Shown: one piece after another, positions 24,474 through 30,826 of the stretch
Layout of the letters: every line of letters starts with the position of its first letter
Position numbering within the stretch: position 1 is the first letter of the stretch
Assembly: GCA_016929525.1 (NCBI GenBank)
Contig: JAFGIP010000089.1
Location: 1 to 64,000, forward strand
Origin: Bacteroidales bacterium
GTDB lineage: Bacteria; Bacteroidota; Bacteroidia; Bacteroidales; UBA10428
Reading direction: 5' to 3'
DNA length: 64,000 nucleotides
The notes under the pieces: model-generated
Told to the model about the DNA's origin: nothing
The model's database searches: none
The model's input: only the letters and a program-made list of their open reading frames with translations
Position numbers and translations under genes: made by a program

Positions 24474-24683
24474 TTATTTAACTCCGTTTAATTGTTTTTC
24501 GGCTTCCAGCCAGTCTGATAATTCATCTCCGTGCTTTCCTGAGTTTAGTCTTTCCAGATAGATTTCTTCAGCTTTACGTCTAATAGTTTCAGCACTGATT
24601 TTTGCTTTTTTTGCAACTGGTTTTTTTGCACTTGCCGAAGCACTTTTTGCAGTTGTCTTTTTTGTCGATGCTTTTGTTGCCAT
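24474..24683 (-). CDS. small basic protein with DUF2934-like C-terminus
   Basis: A 69-residue protein. The first 30 residues are almost entirely Lys, Ala, Ser and Thr, like a histone H1 tail. The rest (about residues 31-65: I-R-R-K-A-E-E-I-Y-L-E-R, then D-W-L-E-A-E-K-Q-L) resembles DUF2934. The tail suggests nucleic acid binding, but the function is not established. A second small basic protein is encoded 29 bases upstream on the same strand, so the two may form an operon. Confidence 0.7.
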   Translation of the reverse strand: MATKASTKKTTAKSASASAKKPVAKKAKISAETIRRKAEEIYLERLNSGKHGDELSDWLEAEKQLNGVK

Positions 24684-25089: not shown

Positions 25090-28000
25090 TCAGTTGCTGG
25101 CGTGTTTGCCCTTTCTTGGTAAGCTAAAAGTAAAAATACTCCCTATATTTATTTTACTTGTAACCCAAATTCTTCCTTTGTGATCTTCGATGAATTCTTT
25201 GCATAAGACCAGTCCGAAACCTGTACTTGTTTCATAATTGGTACCCTGCCTGGTGTACTTGTTGTCAATATCAAATAACTTTGGAATTGCTTCTGCATCT
25301 ATGCCAATTCCTTCATCTTTAACTGAGACTTCAATATTATCACCTTTATCAACAAGAATAAGTTCTATATGTTTATTTTGTTCAGTAAATTTTACTGCAT
25401 TTGAAAGTAAATTACGGACTACCGTTTCAATCATTTTCATATCGGCACTTACTATGATATTATCTTTATCAGGTTGAAATGCTATTTCGATTTTCTTTGA
25501 TGTAGCCTGTGGTTCAATGTGTGAGATAACCTGTTTAATTAAATCATTTAAATTGAAATCATTGTAGTTTAGTTCAAGTACTCCGCGCTGTGAACGTGAC
25601 CACTGCAACAAGTTTTCAAGCAATGAATATACATTTTGAGATGATTCTCTGATTAACTTTATAATATTTATCTTTTTTTCGTCAGGCCACTGCTTAAATT
25701 TAATTTCAAGGAGTTCAATAAAGCCGAGGACTGAGTTAAATGGATTTTTCAGATCATGGGCAATAATGGAGAAAAACTTATCTTTCATTGCATTGGCTTC
25801 AGCCAGGCTTTCATTACTGCTTTTCAACTCTTCAGACTGTTCCTCAATTCGTTGTTGTCTTTCTTCCAGTAAAGAATTTACTTCATTCAGATTATCTGTT
25901 TGAGTCTTAAGCAAATCATTCTTATTACTTAATTCTTCGGTTCGGCTTTGAACTTGTCTTTCCAGTTCTTCATTTTGCAGGCGGATGCTTCTTGTTCTTA
26001 GATAAAAAATCAGGACAATTATTAATATTAGTATTATTACGGTAATGGCTTTGAACAAAAATGTCTTCCAAAATGGTGGTAAGATGGTCAATTTGATGAA
26101 GTCACCATCATTATTCCATATTCCATCACTGTTTGAAGCAATTACTCTGAATACGTATTCACCTCCCGGTAAATTTGTATATGTTGCCGACCGTGATTTA
26201 CCATTTGTAAAAAACCAATCTTTATCAAAGTTTTCTAACTTGTAACGATATTGGTTTTTAATCGGGTCGTTATATGAAAAGGCCGAGAATTCAAATGAAA
26301 TAGTATTTTCCCGGTAACTTAGGGTAATATGATCTGTATTGAATATTGGCTGATCGAGTATTTTTTTTTCATTTACAATGTCTCCGGGGTGTATTTCCTT
26401 ATTAAGAATTTTAAGTTTGGTAATTGCTACCTTAGGTTTTTGCAGATTTGGCTTTAGTTCAGCAGGATCAAATAAATTGAATCCATTATTTCCTCCAAAA
26501 GCAAGCATTCCGTTTTTTAGCTTAATACACGAGTTAAAAATAAACTCATTAGCCTGCAAACCATCTTTACGGGTATAGTTGGTAAATATTGATTTTTCTT
26601 GATCAAATCTGGCCAACCCTCCTTCTGTGCCAATCCAAATGTTATTTTGGTTATCTTCAACAATACCTACAACAGTATTGTTGGGTATGCCGTTCAGAAT
26701 GGTATATGTTTCAGTTTCTTTGGTGTAGGGATTGATTTTTATTAATCCGGACCCTCCTGTTCCAAGCCAGAAGGTGCCATTATTATTAATATAGAAGCAT
26801 AATAAATTATAGTTTACTTCATTTATAAACGTGTCTTTTTCTGCAATATATTTTAATAAACCTTCTGCTGACGCCAGCCAAATATTGTTTTCCTTATCTG
26901 TTCTAATAGTATTGATAGAACTAAGTGCCGCATTTTTACCTGGCAAATATTTTTTAAATACTGCATTTCTCGAATCTGATTTTAAACTTTCATTATATTC
27001 CAGAACATTTACGCAATTCCCAAAAATTGAGATCCACATATTACCATCGTTGTCTTCATGAAGAGCATATACAGACCTATAGCCAATGCTGTTCTCATTT
27101 GAAGGATCATTTTGGTATAATATATAGTTACCGTTGTCAGGATTATATTTAATTAATCCATCTGCAGTCCCGATCCAAATCCTTCCGGCTTTGTCCTGTA
27201 GTATTGATGCAACGTTATTTGTCAATCCTTTTTCTTGAAATTTAATGTATCTGAATTTGTCCGTATCCAGATCAAGAACATTAACTCCACCGCCAACTGT
27301 GCCTATCCATAGTTTATTATCGATTTCACAGAAAGAAGAAACTTCATTACTATTTAGATTATTAGTTGACTTACCTGTTTTATTATAGTGTCTAAATTTT
27401 TGTTTGTTAATATCAAAAAAACTTACACCATTGCCATAGGTCCCCAGCCAAAGTACATCAGAATTGTCAATATTAACGCACCATATTTTATTGTTGCTGA
27501 TACTGTAATAGTCAGAAGGATCATGCTCATAACGTGTTATTTTATTCTTCTGTACGTTTAATTTATTCAACCCACCTCCATAAGCTGCAATCCAAAGAAT
27601 GCCATCCTTGTCCTGTATTATATCCCGGATTGTGTTGTGTGAAAGACTATTAATATTGTTAGGATCATTTTTAAAATCAATGACTTCGTTGGTCTCAGTA
27701 TTGTAACATAATAGTCCCTGAAACCAACTGCAAAACCATATTCTACCGTTACTGTCTTCAAAAATGTTATTAATTATATAAGCTGTACTTAACAGACCAA
27801 GGTCTTTTGTTTTATACAGATTATTGAATTCTTCTTTTTCACGGTTAAAAATTGAGATACCCCCACCTTCTGATCCTACCCAAAAAGTATTTTTACTATC
27901 AATAAAAATCGTGTTAACTCTGTCACTTGTAAGGCTACCGGGATCTTCCCTATCTGATTTAAAACAATGAAATTCCCCAGTTTTTTTATTAAAACTGTTA

Positions 28001-28494
28001 ATTCCGCCACCATACGTTGCAATCCAGAGTAAGCTATCATTATCTTCAATTATTTTGCGGACATTATTATTACTTATGCTATTAGCATTGGGATTATGAA
28101 TAAACCTTACGAAAGAATGCGTTGCCCCATTATATTTATTTAATCCGCTTAACGTTCCAACCCAAATATCTCCACCGCTATCCTCAAAAACACAGAATAT
28201 GGCTGAATGGCTAAGAGATGTACTATCATTTTCAATGTAAATAAATTTTTCGAATTCATATCCGTCATATCTATTTAAACCCATATAAGTTGCAATCCAT
28301 AAGAATCCTTTACTATCCTGAAATATTGCATTAACATGACTATTTGATAGCCCCTGCTCAATAGAGAGGTTTTGGAAATTTATGTTACCATTAAATTGAC
28401 CATAACAAATACAACATGATATAATCAAAGTTATTACCATGCTGCACTTTTTGTAAATAGATAAATGTATTGAGATTTCCTGTTTCGAAAACAT
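25090..28494 (-). CDS. two-component regulator propeller sensor histidine kinase
   Basis: A 1134-residue sensor of the reg_prop/Y_Y_Y class. After a signal or anchor (about residues 19-32; an alternative start is Met19 at 28440) comes a periplasmic pair of seven-bladed propellers. These are built of about 14 repeats resembling D-x-x-G-x-x-W-I-G-T-x-G-G-G-L (about 45-715). A Y_Y_Y domain (about 745-805), one membrane helix (about 815-833) and a long coiled coil follow. HisKA carries His913 in I-I-A-H-D-L-K-N-P-F, and a complete ATPase domain ends the protein. There is no receiver or AraC output domain, unlike the hybrid glycan sensors of Bacteroides, so a separate regulator is needed. The ligand is unknown. 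Confidence 0.93.
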   Translation of the reverse strand: MFSKQEISIHLSIYKKCSMVITLIISCCICYGQFNGNINFQNLSIEQGLSNSHVNAIFQDSKGFLWIATYMGLNRYDGYEFEKFIYIENDSTSLSHSAIFCVFEDSGGDIWVGTLSGLNKYNGATHSFVRFIHNPNANSISNNNVRKIIEDNDSLLWIATYGGGINSFNKKTGEFHCFKSDREDPGSLTSDRVNTIFIDSKNTFWVGSEGGGISIFNREKEEFNNLYKTKDLGLLSTAYIINNIFEDSNGRIWFCSWFQGLLCYNTETNEVIDFKNDPNNINSLSHNTIRDIIQDKDGILWIAAYGGGLNKLNVQKNKITRYEHDPSDYYSISNNKIWCVNIDNSDVLWLGTYGNGVSFFDINKQKFRHYNKTGKSTNNLNSNEVSSFCEIDNKLWIGTVGGGVNVLDLDTDKFRYIKFQEKGLTNNVASILQDKAGRIWIGTADGLIKYNPDNGNYILYQNDPSNENSIGYRSVYALHEDNDGNMWISIFGNCVNVLEYNESLKSDSRNAVFKKYLPGKNAALSSINTIRTDKENNIWLASAEGLLKYIAEKDTFINEVNYNLLCFYINNNGTFWLGTGGSGLIKINPYTKETETYTILNGIPNNTVVGIVEDNQNNIWIGTEGGLARFDQEKSIFTNYTRKDGLQANEFIFNSCIKLKNGMLAFGGNNGFNLFDPAELKPNLQKPKVAITKLKILNKEIHPGDIVNEKKILDQPIFNTDHITLSYRENTISFEFSAFSYNDPIKNQYRYKLENFDKDWFFTNGKSRSATYTNLPGGEYVFRVIASNSDGIWNNDGDFIKLTILPPFWKTFLFKAITVIILILIIVLIFYLRTRSIRLQNEELERQVQSRTEELSNKNDLLKTQTDNLNEVNSLLEERQQRIEEQSEELKSSNESLAEANAMKDKFFSIIAHDLKNPFNSVLGFIELLEIKFKQWPDEKKINIIKLIRESSQNVYSLLENLLQWSRSQRGVLELNYNDFNLNDLIKQVISHIEPQATSKKIEIAFQPDKDNIIVSADMKMIETVVRNLLSNAVKFTEQNKHIELILVDKGDNIEVSVKDEGIGIDAEAIPKLFDIDNKYTRQGTNYETSTGFGLVLCKEFIEDHKGRIWVTSKINIGSIFTFSLPRKGKHASN

Positions 28495-28651: not shown

Positions 28652-29047
28652 TTATGCAACAAGAAAATTTTGATTTCTGGCTTCTGATAAGCAGACGTAT
28701 ATGAATTTAGTCCTCTCAAGTTTTTCTTCAAAAAATTGGCCGGTTTCGTAATGATCTTCATCATCTTCTTCAAAGTACCAAATCACCTCAAGATTTTTAA
28801 TTTTAGAATTTTCATCTAGTATCTTAAGCATAACAAACATTTGCATAGAAGCACTTGTATTCAGATATTCCAGGTTAATTTCAACCTTTACTTTTGGGCA
28901 TGATATATTAGAAATTCACTCTATTAAAGGTCTGAAAGTAACAACGGCATTATCAGGAAATGCACGTCCTTCAATTTTAAGAAGCCCTTTTGTACTAAAC
29001 ATTATGGCAGGAGAAGTTATAGTCCCTTCAATATTTAAATACCCCAT
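28652..29047 (-). pseudogene. SiaC-like (DUF1987) gene interrupted by an in-frame TGA
   Basis: Read on the - strand from an ATG at 29047, one frame encodes a SiaC/DUF1987-like protein of about 131 residues with a single stop at codon 44 (TGA, 28916-28918). Before it: G-Y-L-N-I-E-G-T, then I-E-G-R-A-F-P-D-N and R-P-L-I-E. After it: V-E-I-N-L-E-Y-L-N-T-S-A-S and V-I-W-Y-F-E-E-D-D-E-D. Family members usually have Trp after P-L-I-E, so a TGG to TGA change is the simplest explanation. SiaC is a phosphorylatable partner in SiaABCD signalling. A 64-residue frame from an internal ATG at 28846 remains open, but it lacks the probable phosphoacceptor Thr in L-N-T-S. Confidence 0.75.
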
Positions 29048-29263: not shown

Positions 29264-29728
29264 GTGAGTAAAGTTGTAATAAGCGGATACAATGAGCTTG
29301 AAGCATTTCTTGGGAAGGAGATTGGTGTCTCTGAGTACCACACGATAACACAGGAACAAATTAATCAGTTCGCCGATGCTACTTCAGATCATCAGTGGAT
29401 TCATGTAAATGTTGAGCGGGCAAAAAAAGAATCACCGTTTAAATCAACAATAGCTCATGGTTATCTTACTCTTTCGCTATTAACTTATTTATGGCTGCAA
29501 ATTGTTGAAGTACGCAATGTAAAGCTTATGGTAAATTATGGAATTGAAAACCTGAAATTTAACCAAAGTGTAACTGTTAACAGCCGTGTAAGGTTAAGGG
29601 CACAATTGGAATCGATCAAAGACCTGCGGGGTGTTACCAGAGCGCACATGAAAGCTACTTTGGAAGTTGAAGGAAGTGAGAAACCAGCTTATACAGCCAT
29701 AATAGTATTTTTATATCATTTTATATAA
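29264..29728 (+). CDS. MaoC-like dehydratase
   Basis: A 154-residue hot-dog-fold protein of the MaoC / (R)-specific enoyl-CoA hydratase family, which hydrates trans-2-enoyl-CoA. The signature F-A-D-A-T-S-D-H-Q-W-I-H supplies the catalytic Asp42 and His47, followed by I-A-H-G-Y-L-T-L-S-L. The start is a GTG at 29264. It stands alone, so the physiological acyl substrate cannot be named from context. Confidence 0.88.
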   Translation: MSKVVISGYNELEAFLGKEIGVSEYHTITQEQINQFADATSDHQWIHVNVERAKKESPFKSTIAHGYLTLSLLTYLWLQIVEVRNVKLMVNYGIENLKFNQSVTVNSRVRLRAQLESIKDLRGVTRAHMKATLEVEGSEKPAYTAIIVFLYHFI

Positions 29729-30747: not shown

Positions 30748-30822
30748 GGGCGCTTAGCTCAGCTGGTTCAGAGCACCTGCCTTACAAGCAGGGGGTCACT
30801 GGTTCGAATCCAGTAGTGCCCA
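30748..30822 (+). tRNA. tRNA-Val (anticodon TAC)
   Basis: A 75-base cloverleaf. The acceptor stem pairs GGGCGCT with AGTGCCC, with one G-T pair and discriminator A. The D arm contains AGCTCAGCTGG. The anticodon stem CCTGC/GCAGG encloses CTTACAA with anticodon TAC at 30783-30785. The T arm is CTGG-TTCGAAT-CCAG. CCA is not encoded. TAC reads valine codons GUA and others by wobble. Confidence 0.96.
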
Positions 30823-30826
30823 CGCA

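Follow-up and report, generated by a model that had tools for sequence, protein, structure and literature searches.

SiaC proteins are known experimentally from one pathway of Pseudomonas aeruginosa, in which SiaC controls a diguanylate cyclase. In the literature searched, the term 'DUF1987' was found solely in work on P. aeruginosa, and no description of an expansion of SiaC was found there, including the available text of PMC8457831, PMC7647112 and PMC9239204; in its available text, PMC9239204 names only the P. aeruginosa pathway. The phosphorylated residue of P. aeruginosa SiaC is Thr68, with which the second long helix begins (PMC7647112).

In the 64,000-nucleotide stretch of Bacteroidales DNA analysed here (the window), we found a SiaC-family frame that is interrupted by a single TGA (Table 1). 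When read through this codon, the encoded protein resembles P. aeruginosa SiaC in three respects: its sequence matches over residues 2–108 (E 2e-8), with both the Trp and the N-T-S at Thr68 inside the match; its predicted fold matches PDB entries 6K4F, 6KKO, 6KKP and 7E6G with TM-scores (query) of 0.73–0.79; and a Thr again opens the second long helix. Unlike its P. aeruginosa counterpart, the window gene is interrupted; the two proteins are 24–26% identical, and the score of 55.3 bits against the NCBIfam equivalog NF038265 lies below the cut-off of 150 for the SiaC of SiaABCD. The locus also differs from SiaABCD, as no SiaA, SiaB or SiaD genes stand beside the window gene, which is flanked instead by a Reg_prop sensor kinase and a MaoC-domain gene. 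Furthermore, zero GGDEF matches were detected in the source genome in a search that was positive in 8 of 14 control genomes, and the output in this organism therefore cannot consist in activating a SiaD-like diguanylate cyclase.

Table 1. Features of the interrupted SiaC-family locus and its two neighbours (window positions)
Feature	Position	Strand	Basis
SiaC-family (PF09345) coding frame with one TGA	28652..29047	−	Profile match and translation
In-frame TGA, codon 44	28916..28918	−	Trp in 87/97 homologues
43-residue product from the natural start	28916..29047	−	Translation, predicted structure
64-aa ORF after the TGA (read-through residues 68–131)	28652..28846	−	ORF list, Pfam
Thr64 codon, aligned to phosphorylated Thr68 of P. 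aeruginosa SiaC	28856..28858	−	Alignment
Reg_prop/Y_Y_Y/HisKA/HATPase_c sensor kinase, 157 bp downstream, same strand	25090..28494	−	Pfam
Divergent MaoC-domain gene	29264..29728	+	Pfam

The interrupted frame and its predicted product

The frame consists of 43 codons, the TGA, 87 further codons and a terminal stop, all in a single frame with no frameshift. The frame is open upstream as far as 29083, which points to the ATG at 29047 as the natural start codon. In the genome-wide search, the interrupted gene was recovered as one PF09345 match covering profile positions 1–115 with one TGA inside (79 bits, E 7e-22), whereas the other 16 PF09345 matches of the genome contain zero internal stops. The read-through protein scored 83.9 bits against PF09345 over residues 6–115 (cut-off 24.5), and an AlphaFold2 model, built from an alignment with 28 relatives, reached a pLDDT of 93; all eight PDB matches to this model at E≤0.001 were P. 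aeruginosa SiaC chains. The earlier note, made from the DNA letters alone, had described a SiaC/DUF1987-like gene split by one in-frame TGA, and both the family assignment and the position of the split are borne out by these searches and by the translation. As assembled, this member of the SiaC family lacks an intact reading frame and is broken.

The same note had proposed that the TGA replaces a Trp codon, and the alignment agrees with this proposal. Trp occupies the column in 87 of 97 homologues: 11 of 16 for the other copies in the source genome, 15 of 17 for sequences from related genomes and 61 of 64 for sequences from other public genomes. P. aeruginosa SiaC also has Trp at this site. 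The ten exceptions carry F (three), Y (one), A, K, R, S, I and Q, so that in about seven of the 97 the residue is none of W, F and Y; judged from this alignment, Trp at the position of codon 44 is not essential across the whole SiaC family. Within the clade to which the window gene belongs (see below), Trp is present in all nine intact members, and the homologues lacking it that would have spoken against the proposal are thus absent from the clade.

The TGA falls in the last turn of the predicted first helix (residues 34–45). Translation of the gene as assembled would yield 43 residues and break off within the first helix of the STAS-like fold, and the product would comprise just the predicted strands 4–6, 14–18 and 22–29 and most of that helix. 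Thr64 is the first residue of the predicted helix 64–79, the second long helix, and is predicted to be a candidate phosphorylatable Ser/Thr site; Ser or Thr occupies its position in 95 of the 97 homologues and in all nine intact members of the clade. Two variants at this site were seen elsewhere: one of two tandem SiaC-family genes (L038:6961–7806) has Asp replacing the phosphorylatable Ser/Thr, and another SiaC copy (L042) has Ala. The intact relatives are most likely phospho-switch proteins, phosphorylated on Ser/Thr and binding a partner when unphosphorylated, by analogy with P. aeruginosa SiaC, the one member in which this has been tested. In the interrupted gene, the strand and the helix bearing the phosphorylatable Thr would not be made, and the product should therefore be inactive.

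The 64-residue open reading frame after the TGA scored 30.8 bits against PF09345 on its own, above the Pfam cut-off of 24.5, as would be expected if it were a functional gene in its own right or if the protein were made in two pieces. Against this, intact homologues are about 124–135 aa long, which contradicts the idea that the shorter product is the normal gene. The first in-frame ATG past the TGA is codon 68, and the strand at residues 52–62 and Thr64 are absent from both the 43-residue piece and the 64-residue ORF, so loss of function is likely. We regard a functional 64-residue gene or a two-piece protein as having a negligible chance of being correct.

Recoding, consensus error or a recent stop

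If UGA were read as Trp or selenocysteine, by recoding or by regulated read-through, a full-length SiaC would be made. The sequence past the TGA is under full constraint, as such decoding would predict, and the CCA anticodon has UGA as a near-cognate codon. TGA nevertheless acts as a terminator in this genome. Beyond the 17 long ORFs terminated by TGA, the number of codons until the next stop has a median of 8 and a maximum of 41, compared with medians of 8 after TAA-ended and 8.5 after TAG-ended ORFs; these 17 are part of 166 long ORFs, a proportion that is partly circular, the ORFs having been called with TGA as a stop. TGG occurs 694 times in 67,761 codons, and the 11 other copies in the source genome with Trp at the site have open frames, so that their Trp codon is necessarily TGG. 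Among the matches listed, the window gene alone carries a stop at the site. The sole Trp tRNA found carries the anticodon CCA, and no tRNA with a UCA anticodon was present among the 38 typed of 39 hits, the remaining hit lying untyped at a contig end in a tRNA set that the draft state of the genome leaves incomplete. SelA was not found in the genome in a search in which 2 of 14 control genomes were positive. On the basis of the stop behaviour, the tRNAs and the absence of SelA, recoding was rejected; it is very improbable here, in line with the earlier judgement. The sole tRNA gene in the window is a tRNA-Val (TAC) at 30748–30823 on the plus strand.

To place the gene among its relatives, we used a tree of 34 proteins, which assigns the window gene to a clade of ten members (support 100/99). 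The other nine members (L045–L052 and L056) come from related genomes, have open frames and are 42–57% identical to the read-through protein. Identity to the four nearest relatives is 44–53% before the TGA, compared with 44–58% for these relatives among themselves, and 57–61% after it, compared with 54–70%. At clade-invariant positions after the TGA, the window copy changes 1 of 20, while the nine intact members change 0–2 of 19–21; the terminal branch of the window gene is 0.51, within the clade range of 0.30–0.81. Apart from its stop, the gene thus shows no further decay, as had been supposed, and the stop is either recent or not real. Two genomes of the same genus each contain a homologue of the neighbouring MaoC protein (83–84% identity) close to the SiaC relative, at distances of 1.3 and 2.3 kb and with other genes between, which supports the orthology of the window SiaC gene with those two relatives.

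The second of these two possibilities, namely, an error of consensus or assembly or a minority strain allele in the consensus of an organism whose gene is intact, deserves weight. The assembly is a draft of 122 contigs, the sole damage is one codon, and an error would explain the absence of decay no less well than a mutation would. We examined 105 domain matches in the source genome (17 SiaC, 5 DUF6272, 12 SpoIIE and 71 HATPase_c), and no internal stop was detected in any besides the interrupted SiaC, the uniqueness of which is also consistent with an error. An apparent second case of a TGA-interrupted gene, a HATPase_c match at C26:55560–55838, was dismissed, since on translation that gene proved to end naturally at the TGA. 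On the other side, the change is a single substitution with no obvious homopolymer around it, and substitutions of this kind outside homopolymers are an untypical pattern for assembly errors. A scan of public genome contigs, from which records of the source genome itself were possibly excluded, returned 64 relatives, none of this species and the best at 43% identity. The closest homologues in a protein-query search are 54–58% identical, and at such distances an assembly error and a recent mutation look alike. An error or a minority allele is a serious alternative, though less likely than a recent nonsense allele. Taken together, these results favour a SiaC-family phosphoprotein gene in which one nonsense codon has arisen very recently at the site of a conserved Trp, a reading to which we assign a probability of roughly 0.7; the recency of the stop is suggested by the absence of decay.

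Genes beside the interrupted SiaC gene

The large sensor kinase next to the window gene had been proposed in the earlier note as a possible Sia-type signalling partner. This proposal was not supported, as the adjacency is not conserved in the clade. In a tblastn search with the window kinase, kinase domains were found near three of the nine other clade members (L046, L047 and L056), and L049–L051 are short or end near the SiaC gene and give no fair test of adjacency. At L046 and L047, SiaC lies directly in front of PAS hybrid kinases, unlike the kinase type of the window, and at L045 and L048 the next downstream gene is convergent with the SiaC relative. Within the source genome, a kinase is the next gene for 2 of the 17 SiaC copies (the window copy and one at 29.6 kb on C38) against about 0.7 by chance, a hand estimate from 71 HATPase_c matches in 4.06 Mb; these numbers give no evidence of partnership. 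With other kinase types at L046 and L047 and none at L045 and L048, the window kinase was set aside as a partner for want of support.

Three further observations were made. A homologue of the window kinase with 35% identity (L031:3181–6576) also directly adjoins a SiaC copy, though in convergent orientation, possibly by chance. A 69-aa protein with a Lys/Ala-rich start, an acidic end and no Pfam match is encoded at 24474–24683 on the minus strand of the window. A promoter scan found 6 sites against 6.0 expected.

SiaC copies in the genome, the family and the order

The source genome contains, together with its 17 SiaC matches, five SiaB-type kinases (DUF6272). A check for siaA/B/D-like genes was negative beside the window gene; SiaB-type and PP2C-type genes were found beside five other copies. 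These five adjoin DUF6272 and/or SpoIIE (PP2C) genes on C115, C38 (at 93 kb), C99, C59 and C86, and the SiaB-type neighbour on C115 scored 173.6 bits against the NCBIfam SiaB-family cut-off of 85. The other 12 copies, including the window copy, have no SiaB-type or SpoIIE neighbour (the scan did not extend to the ORF directly adjoining the C28 copy); most of the genes next to them are unrelated, for example those for aconitase, carbamoyl-phosphate synthase and a KsgA-type protein. The SiaB-type and SpoIIE genes are located on contigs other than that of the window. Two SiaB–SiaC pairs (L029:3895–7984 and L030:5853–9962) adjoin large ABC transporter genes (approximately 1030 aa) with ABC-2 membrane domains, one of which also has a TerB domain.

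The same abundance was observed across the bacterial family of the source. All 23 family genomes examined (the source genome and 22 relatives) contain SiaC, with 6–21 matches each and 308 in total, and all 23 contain DUF6272, with 2–6 each and 93 in total; SiaC matches outnumber SiaB-type matches in each of them, and a GGDEF match was detected in one of the 23. In an even sample of the phylum, SiaC was found in 16 of 295 other genomes, with 1–4 matches each; scoring in this search stopped at 14 candidates, and the source genome accordingly counted 14 matches in it. In a protein-query search of other families of the order, 5 of 12 genomes gave 3–13 matches and seven gave none; two other families in this list are likewise SiaC-rich, one genome having 13 matches, and the SiaC expansion is not confined to the bacterial family of the source.

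We tentatively suggest, as one possible model, that the broken gene belonged, as one node, to an expanded network of SiaC phospho-switches, in which a few SiaA/SiaB-type enzymes may serve many stand-alone SiaC proteins, the outputs would not be c-di-GMP, and members come and go, the window copy having just been lost. The interruption by itself is an ordinary event of little weight, being one nonsense codon, or an error, in one paralogue. The expansion of the family without diguanylate cyclases is a better lead: a lineage with 6–21 SiaC matches per genome, in which GGDEF is nearly absent, is a place to ask what else SiaC switches.
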